Shown piece after piece: positions 1,757-7,828 of a stretch of 7,828 bases of DNA. Source of the DNA: Bacteroidota bacterium. Lineage in GTDB: Bacteria > Bacteroidota > Kryptoniia > Kryptoniales > JAKASW01. The notes under the pieces were generated by a model, which saw only the letters and a list, made by a program, of their open reading frames with translations, made no database searches and was not told the origin of the DNA. Where the stretch lies: the NCBI GenBank assembly GCA_021796055.1, contig JAJYOS010000279.1, positions 1-7,828 of the forward strand, written 5' to 3'. A program made the translations under genes and the position numbers. Numbering within the stretch: the first letter of the stretch is position 1; every line of letters starts with the position of its first letter.

Positions 1757-2050
1757 TCATCGATGCCCGTGCGCGGCCTTGAGTGCCACCCGCTCCGCAC
1801 AAGAAGAGCGGAACCGCATTTGTTCTTGCTGCCAGGGCAGGCGGTTTTCCCAGTTCAGCATCAGTCCCCTGTCTATGTAATATGAAACCCCCAGGCTGGC
1901 GTTGTTTGTAATGTATCTTTGCTGTTCATTCCGGTCATGGAATGTCAAACCAAAGGATTCGGTGATCGACGTCACCAACCTGTCAACGCAATTGTCCGCG
2001 AAGGCACTTGAAATATCGGGAGTTTCTATCCAGCCGTATTTGAAACCAGT
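1757..2050 (-). pseudogene. Possible remnant of an outer-membrane beta-barrel gene
   Basis: This - strand frame is open from just after a TAA at 2051-2053 to the TGA at 1757-1759, about 97 codons. Its first part overlaps the end of the archaemetzincin gene in another frame. The central residues look like real protein: strand-like segments with alternating polar and aromatic residues, such as SITESFGLTFHDR, YITNNASLGVSYYIDRG and LMLNWENRL, resembling transmembrane hairpins of outer-membrane barrels. The tail (RSSCAERVALKAAHGHR) looks like random sequence. No ATG is present; the possible starts are TTG at 1978 and GTG at 1975, and neither has a convincing ribosome binding site. I infer a truncated relic of a barrel gene rather than a working gene. 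A chance open frame or a short functional gene are the alternatives. Confidence 0.33.
1790..1811. terminator. Weak stem-loop between convergent genes
   Basis: CCGCTC (1790-1795) pairs with GAGCGG (1806-1811) around a 10-nt loop, about 45 nt after the DUF362 stop codon. It lies where a terminator for the convergent transcripts is expected. No clean U-run follows on either strand; on the + strand there is only a loosely T-rich ATTTGTTCTT about 6 nt further on. It also lies inside the putative barrel remnant. The call rests mainly on position. Confidence 0.25.
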
Positions 2051-2565
2051 TTACCTCTGCATTCGGGGCAGAGCCTTTCCGTCTTCATGTCTATCTCTTC
2101 AACCCCCGTCGAGGAATGCATGACGCATAAATAATCGTTGCAGTGGAGCAAGCCGAAAGTGTGTCCGAGTTCGTGAACACTCTCTTTGAGGAGGCGCAGG
2201 TGGAGCAATTTCCTGTCTGCTCCGAGTCCGTATAACTCATCATTCAGCCTGTGCGAAGAGACCACTGCCACTTTACCGTCAAGCTGCGCCTCGCCGAACA
2301 CGTAGGTGAGAACCGGAACAAAGAGATCGCCCGAAGTCACCCCCAGTATTCTCCCGTCGAAGTCATCGAACCTATCGAGCAGAGCGGAGATTAGCGGTGT
2401 AGAGCCGTATTGGTTGCGCGACACATTGAAGGCAAACGACCCTTCGAGCGTCTGGGACCGGGATACTTCAACCCTCGGCCCAAACGCCCTGGTAAGGGGC
2501 TCCACCAGCGGATCGAGGAGGGAACGATCTATCGGGCTGATCGCCACGATTAGTATTGAAGACAT
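2026..2565 (-). CDS. amzA: Archaemetzincin family zinc metalloprotease
   Basis: A 179-residue protein carrying the full archaemetzincin signature. HELGH at 131-135 is followed by H141 (HExxHxxGxxH), giving three catalytic zinc ligands and the general base E132. C142, C147, C166 and C169 follow in the spacing that binds the second, structural zinc, and M149 corresponds to the family's Met-turn region. The length is normal for the family and there is no signal peptide, so it should act in the cytoplasm. Archaemetzincins are widespread in archaea, patchy in bacteria, and have no well-defined physiological substrate. The gene starts 32 nt after the sigma-54 regulator's stop codon on the same strand, so it is probably co-transcribed with the two-component system or under its control. 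The ribosome binding site is weak. The family call is firm; the role is unknown. Confidence 0.93.
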   Translation of the reverse strand: MSSILIVAISPIDRSLLDPLVEPLTRAFGPRVEVSRSQTLEGSFAFNVSRNQYGSTPLISALLDRFDDFDGRILGVTSGDLFVPVLTYVFGEAQLDGKVAVVSSHRLNDELYGLGADRKLLHLRLLKESVHELGHTFGLLHCNDYLCVMHSSTGVEEIDMKTERLCPECRGKLVSNTAG

Positions 2566-2597: not shown

Positions 2598-3962
2598 CTA
2601 CGGTCTCTTCAAGCCGTACTTCGAGATTTTGCTGTACAGAGTCACGCGGTCAATTCCAAGAGCTTCGGCAGAACGCGTTATGTTCCATCCCATTTTCTGA
2701 AGCACCTTTTCGATGTGTATCTTTTCCCAGCTCGTCAGCAGATCGTTCTGGGGTGAATTCTGTTCCTGAATCTGAGACATCTGGAACGGCAGATCCTCCG
2801 GCCGGATAACGGGGGGTTTGGCAAGTACCATGGCGCGCTCGATCACGTTTTCAAGCTCGCGGACGTTACCAGGCCATCTGTTTCGGATTAGCAGGTCCAT
2901 AGCTTCCGGGTCGATATCGATCGTCGGCTTGCTCATCGAAGCGGCATATTTTTTCACAAAATGATTTACCAGCGGCGGAATGTCGACGCGCCTCTCCCTC
3001 AACGGGGGAATGAATATCGTAAACACATTTAACCTGTAGTACAAATCCTCGCGGAAACTTCTGTCGGCTATAGCCGCCTCCAGGTCTCGGTTGGTGGCGC
3101 ATATGATTCTGAAGTCGCTTGAGATCATTTCATTGCCGCCAACCCTTGTGAACTGTTTAGTCTCCAGGACCCGAAGAAGCTGAACCTGCATCTTTTGACT
3201 GATCGTCCCAATCTCATCGAGAAAGACTGTCCCTCCGTCGGCCATTTCAAATTTCCCTTTGCGGCGGTATTGTGCACCCGTGAAAGCGCCCTTCTCATGG
3301 CCGAAGAGCTCGCTTTCAAGGAGTGTCTCCGGAACCGCTCCGCAGTTGACCGTGATTATCGGGAAATACTTTCTCGAGCTGTTTGCATGAATCGTCCTGG
3401 CGACAAGCTCCTTGCCGGTACCGCTTTCTCCGCGAATCATGACGGTGGTATCCGTCTGGGCTACGGTTCTCGCCAGGTCGATCACCTTCTGCATCTGAGG
3501 GCTTTCCCCTACAATCTCATCCGCCCCTGAGAGCTCGGACATCTGCTGGCGCAGCCTCCAGTTCTCGTCGGTAAGTTTTTTCGCCCTGAACGCATTTTGA
3601 ACGAGATGTGTCAGGTGATCAGGATCTACCGGCTTTGTTATATAGTCGAATGCTCCCTCTTTCAACGCCTGAACCGCAGTGTCGACTGCGGCGAACGCAG
3701 TAATTATGATTATCGAGGCGTTCTTGTCGATCTCCTTCAGCCGCTTCTGCAGTTCCAGTCCGTCCATGCCGGGCATCTTTATGTCCAGAAGCATAACATC
3801 CCAGGGGCCTTCATTCATCAGACTCAATGCGCGATTGGCGTTTTCCGCCGTTCCGACCCGGTAGCCGTCTTCCTTGAACCATTTGCTAAGCGAGTCGCGA
3901 ACCGACAGCTCATCATCAACTACCAGTATGCTCGGTTGAAGCGCTTTATGATTGTTTGCCAT
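2598..3962 (-). CDS. NtrC-family sigma-54-dependent response regulator
   Basis: A 454-residue protein with the three NtrC-type domains. The receiver domain (about 12-125) has the acidic pair D16/D17, phosphoacceptor D60 in [12 protein letters not shown]88 and K110. The AAA+ sigma-54 interaction domain (about 148-385) has the Walker A GESGTGKE at 178-185, the sigma-54-contacting GAFTGA loop intact at 225-230, Walker B GGTVFLDE at 243-250, [10 protein letters not shown] at 303-312 and the sensor II motif [10 protein letters not shown] at 363-372. A Fis-type helix-turn-helix lies at about 412-452. All catalytic motifs are intact, so it should hydrolyse ATP and open sigma-54 promoters when phosphorylated. 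It starts 18 nt after the heme-kinase stop codon, which makes that kinase its likely partner. Its binding sites are unknown; no convincing -24/-12 promoter was found in the window. It resembles AtoC/ZraR-like regulators, but no specific gene name is justified. Confidence 0.96.
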
Positions 3963-3980: not shown

Positions 3981-5600
3981 TTACAAGCTTGAAATCTTGT
4001 CCGCAACCGGCTCGGAAGGGTTCACCGGGAGAGTTATTGTGAACGTGGTCCCTACATTGGACTCCGATTGAACATCAACCCTTCCGCCGTGTCTCTCTAC
4101 GATACCGTGAACGACAGCAAGGCCGAGCCCCGTCCCCTTCCCGTCCTTCTTCGTCGTGAAGAACGGCTCGAAGATGTGTTCCATGTCTTCCTTGTTTATG
4201 CCAATTCCGGTGTCGACAATTTTTATCTCAACGCCGCGTTTTTTCTCCTTCATTCTCATCTCGACAATGAGTGTTCCCCCATCGGGCATTGCCTCTATCG
4301 CGTTTATTTCGAGTGCAATCAGGGCCTGCTCAATTTGCTGCGGGTCACAGGTAGCTTCAGTGTGCCCTTCCGGCATTTTAAGCTCACACTTCACGTTGTG
4401 CATCGTAAGATGATGGGCTATCAGCTTCAGACTCTGTTCTATGATTGACCTAAGGTCCTGCGGCTGGAAATCGCCCACCTTTTGCCTGGAAAACAGGAGA
4501 AGGTTGCTGACAATATTGCCGCATCGGGCGCTCTCGTCAGCTATCATCGCAAGTTCTTCCTGCATCTCTTTGATTCTCTCCTCGGGGATGCTTTCCTTGC
4601 CGATTTTCTTCCTCAGCAGCTTAGCATACGCGAGTATCCCCGCAAGAGGATTGTTGAGTTCATGAGCTACGCTTGCGGCAAGCTTGCCCAGCGATGCCAT
4701 TTTTTCCATCTGCACCATGTTCGACAGCGCCCTGCGCAGTTCCGCCGTCTTCTGCTCCACCTTGTCCTCAAGTGTGTATGCCCATTGTGTCAGTTCATCC
4801 CTTGCACGGCCGAGCTCTTCGGTCATTTCATTGAATGATGTCGCCAGATCCCCGATCTCGTCGGAAGAATGCACCCTTATCCTGTGGTCGAGGTTTCCCT
4901 TCATGATCTCCTGTGTTCCCTGTGTCAGTTTCCGTACGGGGATATTAACCATAATCCAAATAAATAGTCCGGCAAAGACCGTGACGCTCAACACCATTAG
5001 AGCGCTGCCCATGTAAGTCGACGCTCTCAATTGGGCAAGGTCCGCATCCATACCTTTCAGCGGAAGCATGACATCAAGCACTCCGAGCACAGTCTGGGAC
5101 GACGGATGCTCGTGACACGGGGCGTTGTAGCAGCTGGGCTCATTCCTGATCGGTGTTATCACTCCGAGAACCCTGTAGCCCCTCGGCGAATAGAAGATTC
5201 TGGTCAGGGCCGAGGTCCTGTTCGTCGGAAGACTCTTCCCGGGGCTGTGGCAGACATTGCAGGCTTCTGCGTTCATGTTGACATACCTGCCCACTTCCGT
5301 TTCGACGCTGGAATATGTTATCTCACCCCGCTTATTGTAAATCCGGATCGCCTCTATCCCGGGTTCGGTTCCCAGCGTGTTGATCGTCTGATAAATATCC
5401 TTGCGCCTGTTCTCGAGCATGCTGTACCGCGTCGATCTCTTTATGAGATCACTTGTCCGCAATGCCCAGTCCGTTGTAATGCTCAAATACTTTTCATAGT
5501 GCCAATTCAGCATGACGGTTGTGAAGATTCCCGTAGAAACAAGCATTACGAGAAGTACGATTACGAAAAGCCTGAAGGCCAGAAATTTAGTGATACGCAT
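3981..5600 (-). CDS. Sensor histidine kinase with periplasmic c-type heme motifs (HAMP, HisKA, HATPase)
   Basis: A 539-residue membrane kinase. Transmembrane helix 1 is about residues 7-31, the periplasmic sensor region about 32-195, helix 2 about 197-219, and HAMP about 218-270. A coiled-coil linker leads to HisKA with H313 in the HELNNP box, and to the ATPase domain with an N-box (N433 in INAIEAM), DTGIGI at 463-468 and GKGTGLGLA near 487-495. The sensor region holds two heme-attachment signatures: CNVCH (C114, C117, H118) and the CX4CH form CYNAPCH (C157, C162, H163), the latter of the kind known from cytochrome c3. I infer that it binds two covalent hemes and reads redox state or a gas such as NO or O2. 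It starts 181 nt downstream of the GcvH-like gene and is followed by its likely partner, an NtrC-type regulator, 18 nt later. The ATG at 5600 gives a sensible N-terminal signal anchor. Confidence 0.94.
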   Translation of the reverse strand: MRITKFLAFRLFVIVLLVMLVSTGIFTTVMLNWHYEKYLSITTDWALRTSDLIKRSTRYSMLENRRKDIYQTINTLGTEPGIEAIRIYNKRGEITYSSVETEVGRYVNMNAEACNVCHSPGKSLPTNRTSALTRIFYSPRGYRVLGVITPIRNEPSCYNAPCHEHPSSQTVLGVLDVMLPLKGMDADLAQLRASTYMGSALMVLSVTVFAGLFIWIMVNIPVRKLTQGTQEIMKGNLDHRIRVHSSDEIGDLATSFNEMTEELGRARDELTQWAYTLEDKVEQKTAELRRALSNMVQMEKMASLGKLAASVAHELNNPLAGILAYAKLLRKKIGKESIPEERIKEMQEELAMIADESARCGNIVSNLLLFSRQKVGDFQPQDLRSIIEQSLKLIAHHLTMHNVKCELKMPEGHTEATCDPQQIEQALIALEINAIEAMPDGGTLIVEMRMKEKKRGVEIKIVDTGIGINKEDMEHIFEPFFTTKKDGKGTGLGLAVVHGIVERHGGRVDVQSESNVGTTFTITLPVNPSEPVADKISSL

Positions 5601-5781
5601 GGTTTTTGAGACGCCTCTTGGCAGTTTTCACAATTCTTATGCCGAGAAGGGTCATGACTTCAGGAGAAGATAGTGGCTCAAATCAGGATGAAATCGGCCC
5701 CGAAAGAGATAGCCAGTGACGACTCAGGAGTCGGGGTCTCGAAATTGGGTTGGGACGTGGCATAATTCCGCGAACTTCTTT
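5601..5781 (-). promoter_or_regulatory. Intergenic leader of the heme kinase with a dyad-symmetric element
   Basis: This 181-nt gap is the longest spacing in the - strand block and probably carries a promoter or leader for the kinase, regulator and archaemetzincin genes. It contains the inverted repeat CGACTC-AG-GAGTCG at 5720-5733, a 14-bp dyad about 120 nt upstream of the kinase start. CCCCGA (5698-5703) can also pair with TCGGGG (5731-5736), which would be mutually exclusive with the dyad hairpin. A dimeric regulator's operator, an activator site for the adjacent NtrC-type protein, or a folded RNA leader are all possible. I found no convincing sigma-70 or sigma-54 core promoter by eye. Confidence 0.3.
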
Positions 5782-6606
5782 TCAAGTCCTGATAGCCAGC
5801 ATTTTCTGCAGGAGAAATAGGAGCTTCTGAGGCCCGAGAAAATCTCTCAAATTCCTCGTGCGGGTTCCACCATCCAACAAAGTGACGCCGAGAGACGGGA
5901 CATGCTGATACTCTTCGATTATCTCGTGTTTGAACTGCTCCATCTGACTGCTGTACTCCATTCCGATTTCCTGAGCGTTCAGGAAACGCCTCGTTGTATT
6001 CTCTCCATCGGTCACTTCCAGATCACTTATCCAGCCCTTTCCGTACGGATCATTCTTAATGAGGGCTGCCGAATCCTTCAGTTGGAAATTGCTTCGGACG
6101 ACCCTGCCGGACAACGGCGAACGGACCGCTACCGTCCCGTCTTCGCATATCATCCATGCGAGCGGATTGTTGATGGCCTGCAGGGCGCCCCGCGGGGACA
6201 GTATCACGCTCCCCAGGCTTTCAAGGAGAAAGGCCGCGTAATGGTCCAGCCCTATACGATATATGTTGTCTTGCTCTTTCATAACCCAGACGTGATTACG
6301 TAAATACGATCTGTCGGCAGGCAATGAGACAGACATTGGGAGGGCAAAGAAACCGTTGAGCAAGCTGACGAGCATTTCACAACCAGATACGGCCTTCTCT
6401 TCGATTTTCGCTTCTACTGATCCGGCCGCCTTGGCGGTTAGAGGCATAGAAGAGGGGTGGGACTGTCGGTGCATGACTTGATCGAACGGGCAGTCCTCAC
6501 ATTCAAAATTACGGTCACACAACTTGTACGAGACCAGTCCCGCTTCAACCCAAATACAATTCATTTCGCCATCCGGGATCACTCTGTTGATCATTTTGTT
6601 TTCCAT
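5782..6606 (-). CDS. Cys-motif protein with a GcvH-like (lipoyl-fold) domain lacking the lipoyl lysine
   Basis: A 274-residue soluble protein in three parts. The N-terminus has a Cys cluster, C17-x12-C30-x5-C36-x2-C39 (KLCDRNFECEDCPFD), which could bind zinc or an Fe-S cluster. Residues about 104-200 match the glycine-cleavage H-protein fold: HVWVMKE, IYRIGLDHYAAFLLESLG, SPLSGRVVRSN, then NDPYGKGW. Counting back from the P of SPLSG, the position of the lipoylated lysine (ESVKA in classical GcvH) is occupied by D156 in CEDGTVAV, so the domain should not carry lipoate. The C-terminal part (about 205-274) is helical and ends with a conserved-looking VTLLDGG and LGPQK. Automatic pipelines would likely call it glycine cleavage protein H, but there are no other gcv genes here. 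It follows HybB by 25 nt, which suggests a redox-sensing or scaffold role with the respiratory complex. This is inference. Confidence 0.75.
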   Translation of the reverse strand: MENKMINRVIPDGEMNCIWVEAGLVSYKLCDRNFECEDCPFDQVMHRQSHPSSMPLTAKAAGSVEAKIEEKAVSGCEMLVSLLNGFFALPMSVSLPADRSYLRNHVWVMKEQDNIYRIGLDHYAAFLLESLGSVILSPRGALQAINNPLAWMICEDGTVAVRSPLSGRVVRSNFQLKDSAALIKNDPYGKGWISDLEVTDGENTTRRFLNAQEIGMEYSSQMEQFKHEIIEEYQHVPSLGVTLLDGGTRTRNLRDFLGPQKLLFLLQKMLAIRT

Positions 6607-6631: not shown

Positions 6632-7828
6632 TTATTTGGCTTCCATTCCAAACGTATGCGCACTTTTCAGTTGAGCATTGTCTTCCAGCACGACGACCTC
6701 GTAGCTCTCAGCATGCGCAGGGGCCTCCGCGTGAACCTCCTTGGGAAAGACCGCAAGATTCTTCGCTGCCCATGCGAAGGTGCCGAACCCGACCGCCACT
6801 ATCATCAATGTAACCGAAATTTCCATCCAGCTTGGGAAATAGTTGACGCCGAACTGGCTGTAATAACGCTCAATGGATGTAATGCTGACATCCATTCGGT
6901 TCAGGACGAATCCTGAAACAATGAGAAGCGCGGTGTAAAACAGGCCCCGCTTGCTCTCTCTCACTTTCGGGATCACTAGTAGTACCATAGGAAGAACCAC
7001 ACCGCCCAATATTTCGACCCAATACAATACCCCCTCCAGATTGAACGTGGAGAGATAAGGCGCAAGATGATAGTTCAATATATCTTCTATCTTCAAAACG
7101 AGGTATATCGCAAGGGCGACTGCACTTACTTTCCCCAGCTTTGAGAGTATCGGCATTTCGATCTCCCTGTGGAAAGCGCGGGAGCTGATGAACGACTCAA
7201 TTGTCACCATTGCAGGTCCGACCGCCACGGCAGATATGAAGAAGAAGAAAGGAAGGTTGCCGGAATACCACAGCGGGTACATCTTCTCGGGCACAATAAG
7301 GTAAAGTGATCCCAGCGATGACTGGTGCAAGGTGGAAAGCATTACGCCGAGTATCACAAGAGGGACGATCACTTTATGCACGGCGTGAACCGCCCTATGC
7401 ATTCTCAGCCGTTCGAAGAGCATCGGGCTGAACTCCAGAGCAAGGACCGCCGTATAGAGAATCACGCACCATGCAACCTCGAACATAACCGAATGGGGAT
7501 TCCACATCACCATCGGATGCCAGATGTTCCACGGTCGCCCCAGGTCGAATAGGAGTGCAAAGACGACCAGCACATAGCCAAGAAAGGCCGTAAGTACGGA
7601 AGGCCGCACGATCGCCTGATATTGGTCCAAGTTGAAGACGTAGACCGCAGATGCTACGACGAAGCCGCCGGCTGCCAGACCGACGCCGCACAACACGTCG
7701 AAGCCGATCCACAGTCCCCACGGGAAATCATCACTCAGATGAGTCGCGGCGCCAAGCCCAAACAAGAATCTCACCACAGTCGAGTATAACCCTGCGGCAA
7801 CGAGAGCCAGGAAAACAGATTTCCAGAA
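6632..7828 (-). CDS. hybB: HybB/NrfD-family membrane subunit, 5' end outside window
   Basis: The frame stays open to the window edge. A GTG at 7777 could be a start, but the 17 residues before it (KSVFLALVAAGLYST...) form the first transmembrane helix, so the true start lies beyond 7828. The visible 398 residues contain about ten membrane helices and typical HybB motifs: GLGAATHLSDDFPWGLWIGFD near the N-terminus, LFDLGRPWNIWHP, NPHSVMFEVAWC, STLHQSSLGSLYLI and PLWYSGNLPFFFFISA. HybB/NrfD proteins are integral membrane partners of Fe-S or cytochrome subunits and exchange electrons with menaquinone or ubiquinone; they bind no heme. The last ~40 residues, after the final helix, form a polar Ala/Glu/His-containing tail. 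The catalytic and Fe-S partners (hydrogenase or another oxidoreductase) must lie upstream outside the window, so hydrogenase function specifically is not shown. Confidence 0.88.
   Translation of the reverse strand, partial: FWKSVFLALVAAGLYSTVVRFLFGLGAATHLSDDFPWGLWIGFDVLCGVGLAAGGFVVASAVYVFNLDQYQAIVRPSVLTAFLGYVLVVFALLFDLGRPWNIWHPMVMWNPHSVMFEVAWCVILYTAVLALEFSPMLFERLRMHRAVHAVHKVIVPLVILGVMLSTLHQSSLGSLYLIVPEKMYPLWYSGNLPFFFFISAVAVGPAMVTIESFISSRAFHREIEMPILSKLGKVSAVALAIYLVLKIEDILNYHLAPYLSTFNLEGVLYWVEILGGVVLPMVLLVIPKVRESKRGLFYTALLIVSGFVLNRMDVSITSIERYYSQFGVNYFPSWMEISVTLMIVAVGFGTFAWAAKNLAVFPKEVHAEAPAHAESYEVVVLEDNAQLKSAHTFGMEAK

Follow-up and report, generated by a model that had tools for sequence, protein, structure and literature searches.

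A lysine-less GcvH-fold protein with a four-cysteine module, encoded beside a histidine kinase, an NtrC-type regulator, and an archaemetzincin: a candidate redox input adaptor

The window analyzed here is a 7,828-nucleotide stretch (C26:28648-36475) of a 4.97-Mb Bacteroidota genome. Its minus strand carries, in this order, the genes for an NrfD-family membrane subunit, a protein that we call CYS, a histidine kinase, an NtrC-type response regulator, and an archaemetzincin (Table 1). The last of these, a near-constant neighbor of CYS, had no part in the initial annotation of CYS, which had been made from the sequence alone. Upstream, just outside the window, the cluster continues with a HybA-like Fe-S subunit and a second GcvH-like protein, here termed the paralog. 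No evident Tat signal was seen at the start of the HybA-like subunit, and its relative at locus L078 opens with a twin-arginine-like stretch. Farther upstream lies a protein that matched Phosphoesterase (PF04185) and looks beta-propeller-like by reading; its homologues occupy the same place in several relatives. A DUF362 protein is encoded on the opposite strand.

Table 1. Features of the gene cluster; plain numbers are window positions, and L004 positions refer to the 15-kb locus that takes in the upstream part of the cluster
Feature	Position	Strand	Basis or remarks
NrfD-family membrane subunit (HmcC/HybB-like)	6632..7828, cut by window edge	-	Complete gene 431 aa, L004:2280-3575
CYS gene: Cys module, lysine-less GcvH-fold domain, T-x-x-D-G-G tail	5782..6606	-	ATG start, 274 aa; GCV_H match; family of 54; relatives in 80 loci
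Cys module of CYS, residues 10-48; C17/C30/C36/C39 = C-x12-C-x5-C-x2-C	6463..6579	-	Homologue conservation
GcvH-fold (barrel-sandwich hybrid) domain of CYS, residues 100-214	5965..6309	-	Pfam, structure-chain, and profile alignments
Asp156 codon, at the lipoyl lysine position of canonical GcvH by alignment	6139..6141	-	Alignments
C-terminal tail of CYS, residues 240-270, T-x-x-D-G-G	5797..5889	-	Homologue conservation
Conserved 17-bp near-dyad CGCGGAATTATGCCACG, just past the CYS stop	5756..5772	-	Gap alignment; weak in L015, missing in L016
Sigma-54 (-24/-12)-like GGCA-N6-TTG element, ~30 nt ahead of the kinase start	5629..5644	-	Gap alignment
Membrane histidine kinase, HAMP-HisKA-HATPase; CNVCH and CYNAPCH heme-c-like motifs N-terminally	3981..5600	-	Pfam
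NtrC-type sigma-54-dependent response regulator	2598..3962	-	Pfam and NCBIfam-type model searches
Archaemetzincin, full HExxHxxGxxHCx4CxM...CxxC site	2026..2565	-	NF033823, 155.1 bits, over cutoff 145
HybA-like Fe-S subunit, 268 aa, upstream outside the window	L004:3520-4326	-	Starts 26 nt after the paralog gene
GcvH-like lysine-less paralog, 244 aa, hydrophobic N terminus	L004:4353-5087	-	Same gene cluster, upstream, just outside the window
853-aa protein upstream of the cluster	L004:6492-9053	-	Phosphoesterase (PF04185) match
DUF362 protein, 511 aa	212-1747	+	

Over its GcvH-fold domain, CYS matched Pfam GCV_H (PF01597) at 61.9 bits (cutoff 22.2). The H-protein landmarks listed in the initial annotation, HVWV (residues 105 to 108), PLSG (164 to 167), and NDPYGKGW (185 to 192), are all present. 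Alignment with the solved Escherichia coli GcvH (3a8i_E; 6e-13) is ungapped over residues 94 to 202 and sets D156 in the lysine column. A family profile of 43 diverse members matched the same structure at 1.1e-27 with the register unchanged, its first gap falling only beyond the barrel. In a profile-profile comparison with hhalign, the CYS family and canonical GcvH were related with a probability of 99.8, and the solved structures matched by the family profile at E < 1e-5 were GcvH. By alignment, CYS is thus a GcvH-fold protein with D156 in place of the lipoyl lysine, as the initial annotation had proposed.

Motif conservation was read from 54 full-length homologues gathered with words from the whole CYS protein. 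C30, C36, and C39 were present in all 54 and C17 in 53, with one gap, so that the C-x12-C-x5-C-x2-C spacing of the initial annotation is exact and marks a conserved module; conservation this near to complete argues that the motif is not due to chance. Residue 156 was D in 32 homologues, G in 10, E in 7, N in 3, S in 1, and A in 1, and K in none; nor does K occur in residues 153 to 161 of CYS or in the columns compared in the 54 homologues. The lysine loss across the family, for which the initial annotation had asked for an alignment, therefore held throughout this set and with two exceptions in a wider one. In that alignment, K stood at the lipoyl column in 13/13 canonical GcvH proteins, in 2/301 rows of the Cys type, and in 0/42 rows lacking the motif; the latter two sets include near-duplicates. 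The canonical controls were the window genome's own GcvH and 12 proteins picked by score from the loci (the 11 top scorers and that of L149), and the weaker GCV_H matches outside them were mostly lysine-less family members or were left unexamined. The two exceptional rows, P0068 and one ORF of L128, have K in a context unlike the canonical E-[SA]-V-K and are among the 25/301 Cys-type rows in which K stands no more than two columns from the lipoyl lysine. A tree was built from 71 chosen rows over 99 columns, those of the hairpin left out, with 35/68 inner forks open; in it, the 58 lysine-less rows were separated from the 13 canonical GcvH proteins (SH-aLRT 98). Neither Cys-type nor paralog-type rows formed a single clade (6 and 5 changes).

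In the family layout, a variable linker joins an N-terminal Cys module of ~39 aa to the GcvH fold, and a D-G-G tail follows. For the Cys module of CYS, no Pfam match was found at E 0.01, and the best match among solved structures (PDB) reached only E 0.72. When seven varied proteins were searched against Pfam at E 0.1, only two matches, both sub-threshold, touched the module: BH4 in P0079 (13.1 bits, cutoff 20.5) and Fer4_16 in L117 (17.1 against a cutoff of 30), which reaches over from a neighboring 4Fe-4S site. We deemed both uninformative. The motif occurs at least twice per ORF in 46/81 ORFs, and two of the four Cys-rich copies in locus L182 are weak. In the tail, T242, D245, G246, and G247 were kept in 54/54 close homologues; in the wider set, D-G-G was near-invariant and T was not. 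The string GATLMDGG occurs in the cluster paralog too. Any hydrophobic segment of the membrane-anchor kind was detected in 1/81 Cys-type proteins, which for this test had been trimmed so as to begin 20 residues ahead of the motif. In L122, L123, and L124, Cys-GcvH proteins with a hydrophobic N terminus, an anchor by reading of the sequences, are encoded directly after NrfD.

The genome encodes a true GcvH elsewhere: its gene lies on contig C63, ahead of a P-protein gene (PF02347), and its hairpin reads EAVK. In the window and L004 (15 kb), a Pfam scan of the main ORFs, with small overlapping ORFs set aside, found no member of the P- or T-protein families. The initial annotation had warned that the name would mislead; the sources do label relatives "glycine cleavage system H protein," which is misleading. 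The cluster paralog has a K just beside the lipoyl column, at the +1 position, which is mostly K or R, and otherwise H or G, in 38 paralogs. All 38 have a hydrophobic N-terminal segment. The cluster paralog also gave a sub-threshold match to NQRA_N (13.8 bits, cutoff 25).

The initial annotation had placed CYS directly after HybB. An NrfD-family gene does lie upstream, although the choice of HybB fared less well: HmcC scored higher (339.6 bits, cutoff 550) than PRK10881 (297.6 bits, cutoff 450), the Ni/Fe-hydrogenase cytochrome b model that we take to be HybB, and neither cutoff was reached. The NrfD-type ORFs of L021, L028, L029, L031, and L074 have three CxxCH motifs, which hints at fusion to a cytochrome c part. 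On the other side of CYS, the histidine kinase shares its N-terminal motifs with the kinases that scored above 350 bits with it, which have CxxCH in 31/31 cases and C-x4-CH in 30/31 within the N-terminal part; this suggests a heme-c sensor. The kinases matched in Desulfobacterota loci are mostly without CxxCH.

The ~180-nt gap between CYS and the kinase gene (5601 to 5781) contains two conserved noncoding elements in 12 aligned sequences, i.e., the window and 11 relatives. GGCA and TTG were invariant in all 12, and the reading of this element as sigma-54-type is tentative because the C at -12 varies. We tentatively propose that the near-dyad may be an enhancer site and GGCA-N6-TTG a promoter of that type, for self-regulation. 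The exact 17-bp dyad has one copy in the genome, at the CYS locus; a genome scan allowing up to 3 mismatches gave 25 matches versus 12 for a reversed-pattern control, from which no regulon was readable. A scan for the sigma-54 consensus ahead of paralog-led genes was convincing in 2/12 relatives (L016 and L018) and gave none in the window genome.

Relatives of the locus were sought by an alignment scan of genome contigs, and the best 80 of 83 were kept as loci; since its seed patterns were drawn from the Cys motif, these 80 loci are no test of whether all members have it, and the 54-homologue set was used for that question. An earlier contig scan with the single CYS protein as the query found no relatives. 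The closest matches in the named genome collection were Bacteroidetes and Kryptoniota metagenome genomes. Flanks of ~8 kb were fetched on each side, and in 39 of the 80 loci the sequence extended 6 kb or more to either side of the gene start (full-flank loci). Among these 39, score thresholds recognized a kinase in 37, an NtrC-type regulator in 37, an archaemetzincin in 36, the paralog type in 22, NrfD in 20, and the Fe-S subunit in 20, kinases and NtrC regulators being large families whose counts may include unrelated members. Counted in the same way over all 80 loci, contig ends included, the archaemetzincin was present in 66, the regulator in 64, the kinase in 61, the paralog in 33, the Fe-S subunit in 30, and NrfD in 29. 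The full-flank loci without an archaemetzincin were L026, L056, and L065.

The association with NrfD was less regular. The paralog type was present in 20/20 full-flank NrfD loci, and NrfD was not found in the remaining 19/39, 17 of which kept the archaemetzincin. Without NrfD, the order was mostly kinase-regulator-archaemetzincin-CYS, often near HdrA-like ORFs, which were also seen near some Desulfobacterota relatives. Around extra module copies, 7 of 13 loci (L118, L119, L121, L122, L124, L126, and L127) had an archaemetzincin and 6 did not (L116, L117, L120, L123, L125, and L128), several of the latter being cut by contig ends. At L122, a molybdopterin-binding-domain protein (PF01568; L122:2-2026, plus strand) is encoded upstream of the Fe-S, NrfD, and membrane-anchored Cys-GcvH genes, with the regulator, archaemetzincin, and kinase on the opposite strand.

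The tie to the archaemetzincin was also apparent at the level of whole genomes. The Cys module was found in 22 and the archaemetzincin in 45 of 296 evenly drawn genomes from the window's phylum, with 20 having both, and in 47 and 76 of 198 genomes from the phylum of G019, with 42 having both; Fisher tests gave ~1e-16 in each case, ignoring shared ancestry and using samples probed with the Cys module itself, in which doubtful weak matches (e.g., G293 and G485) were kept. The two genes lay on one contig within ~6 kb in 17/22 and 33/47 genomes, a count that excludes second modules of a gene and archaemetzincins in genomes or contigs without a module. An archaemetzincin without a Cys module occurred in 25/45 and 34/76 genomes, which indicates that the dependence runs one way. 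The active-site pattern of the archaemetzincin was intact in 69/73 matches.

Fusions connect the family to both signaling and electron transfer. Among 113 relatives of P0079 (the query counted), 14 had a Cys module, a GcvH domain, and HisKA in one protein, 13 of them with HATPase_c as well, in a search that admitted only certain protein lengths, so that 14/113 is not a family-wide rate. All 14 kept the cysteines and lacked the lysine, and those placed in the tree fell into one clade that also contained the unfused P0145 and P0067. In four other ORFs (L116, L117, L183, and L184), Fer2 and a 4Fe-4S ferredoxin precede the Cys module and GcvH domain in one chain. The neighbors of the L117 fusion include NuoE-type (PF01257) and NuoF-type (PF01512 and PF10589) ORFs and a 1132-aa flavin/4Fe-4S protein, read as HdrA-like; judged by eye, the surroundings in L116 are alike. 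L185 has a ferredoxin followed by the second half of the Cys module, with no GcvH domain.

Loss of the lysine, gain of a four-cysteine module, and travel with a two-component system and a metalloprotease in several phyla make a redox-sensing adaptor, not a metabolic enzyme, the most likely role of CYS. In its specific form, that CYS is a soluble redox input adaptor linking electron-transfer complexes to the two-component/archaemetzincin cassette, we give this reading an even chance. The four-cysteine module would hold a metal or an Fe-S cluster, and the redox state of such a cluster would follow that of the neighboring electron-transfer complex, here presumably NrfD, the Fe-S subunit, and the membrane-anchored lysine-less paralog, and elsewhere one of NuoEF/HdrA type. 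The GcvH fold, armless as judged from the alignments, may act as a docking platform to the complex and to the kinase. CYS would then pass the redox state to its partner histidine kinase, which would act via the NtrC-type regulator, and the archaemetzincin, the steady third partner, would probably turn over or process a component. The initial annotation had likewise suggested, among other roles, an adaptor between a respiratory complex and the two-component system. Of those roles, it is the one favored by the kinase fusions and the steady kinase and regulator genes, but the link to NrfD proved optional.

Several observations count for the adaptor, namely, the kinase/regulator/archaemetzincin neighborhood, the co-occurrence with the archaemetzincin, and the two heme-c-like motifs of the kinase. 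Kinase fusions favor signaling, ferredoxin fusions and membrane-anchored forms favor electron transfer, and an adaptor between the two would satisfy all three. Others count against it: the kinase's own N-terminal sensor region may make a soluble input needless, the kinase fusions placed in the tree come from a single clade, and the three full-flank loci and 6 of 13 extra-module loci without an archaemetzincin do not fit the cassette. The membrane-anchored paralog and the anchored Cys-GcvH proteins of L122 to L124 would fit equally well with CYS being part of the redox complexes themselves (NrfD/Fe-S and NuoEF/HdrA), as a structural or electron-relay subunit in which the Cys module would carry a cluster, the GcvH fold would be a scaffold, and the two-component cassette would merely regulate the operons. 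The two lysine-less GcvH-like proteins flanking the Fe-S and NrfD genes, the constant company of NrfD and the paralog type, and the ferredoxin fusions point the same way. However, a subunit of this kind leaves no obvious place for the 14 kinase fusions, and it sits poorly with the 19 full-flank loci in which NrfD was not found and the archaemetzincin was mostly kept; we regard it as rather unlikely.

The near-constant archaemetzincin with its largely intact site and the Cys-rich module could instead mean that CYS helps Fe-S subunits to mature or controls their quality, or else serves the archaemetzincin as a substrate; its Cys module would then carry a cluster or zinc in transit. This role would leave the kinase fusions unexplained, as well as the many genomes in which the archaemetzincin occurs without the Cys module, and seems improbable to us. 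It is more doubtful still that CYS remains a carrier, its hairpin modified at another residue or its lysine shifted by one or two positions: some Cys-type rows do have K within two columns and the cluster paralog has it one position off, but the +1 position of the paralogs is not strictly lysine, and a shifted lysine was rejected for CYS itself because no K lies near its lipoyl position. The loss of the lysine might also be taken as the mark of a decaying, functionless GcvH pseudo-copy, to which we attach almost no weight given the full-length frame; chance or decay was rejected on the invariant Cys, W, and G positions, the near-invariant DGG across phyla, and the conserved gene cluster.

Taken beyond this locus, the adaptor reading leads to a broader proposal to which we give somewhat less than an even chance: that Bacteroidota, Ignavibacteria, Gemmatimonadota, Planctomycetota, Acidobacteriota, Desulfobacterota, and others share an undescribed redox-signaling system. 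In it, an armless GcvH fold with at least one four-cysteine redox module would sense the electron state of complexes of the NrfD or NuoEF/HdrA type. It would gate a dedicated histidine kinase, NtrC regulator, and archaemetzincin, and in some cases the kinase would be part of the same chain. Many genes labeled "glycine cleavage system H" may be misread as C1 metabolism and belong to redox signaling or electron transfer. If confirmed, the cassette would provide a new histidine kinase input module, an example of a swinging-arm carrier fold stripped and reused, and a direct handle on the archaemetzincins, and the system, if true, would set bacterial archaemetzincins in a physiological context and add sensing to the roles of the GcvH fold.

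Among known systems, the N-terminal barrel-sandwich hybrid domains of NqrA and RnfC also make no use of lipoate and sit inside redox pumps. CYS differs from them in having other partners and no NQRA_N-type match at E 0.01. Its likeness to GcvH (PF01597 and TIGR00527) lies in a fold aligned over the whole domain, and it differs by the missing lipoyl lysine, an N-terminal extension of ~95 residues that contains the Cys module, and an extra C-terminal tail. Against TIGR00527, it scored 58.2 bits, below the cutoff of 115.85; judged from these comparisons, CYS is in the GcvH superfamily by fold and falls outside GcvH proper on both the lysine and the curated cutoff. GcvH-like families are likewise recognized in NF045810 (GcvH-related; 34.3 against a cutoff of 150) and TIGR03077 (not_gcvH; 31.1 against 144.05), and CYS was under the cutoff of all four NCBIfam models listed. 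In eight relatives, too, GcvH-type models stayed below cutoff among the matches listed (the best 25 for L117 and P0151). A search of the literature found no description of the cassette among the open-licence matches listed, and no paper pairing "archaemetzincin" with "two-component." The neighbor gene shares the HExxHxxGxxHCx4CxM...CxxC site of the archaemetzincin family; according to the abstract of PMC3427221, very little is known of the biological importance of these proteins, and no two-component or GcvH-like neighborhood turned up for them among the open-licence matches listed. In the LbpA proteins of the sHdr sulfur-oxidation system, as described in PMC6067878 and PMC10332631, GcvH homologues were recruited to a redox system with the lipoate-binding lysine kept, and one Cys lies near each end, except in some archaea. 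No Hdr-like protein was recognized among the main ORFs of L004 by Pfam models, none of them specific for shdr. On those descriptions, CYS resembles LbpA as a GcvH homologue with extra cysteines in a redox setting, and it differs in having no lysine, which places it outside LbpA, in gathering its four cysteines in one N-terminal module, and in lying in a signaling neighborhood.
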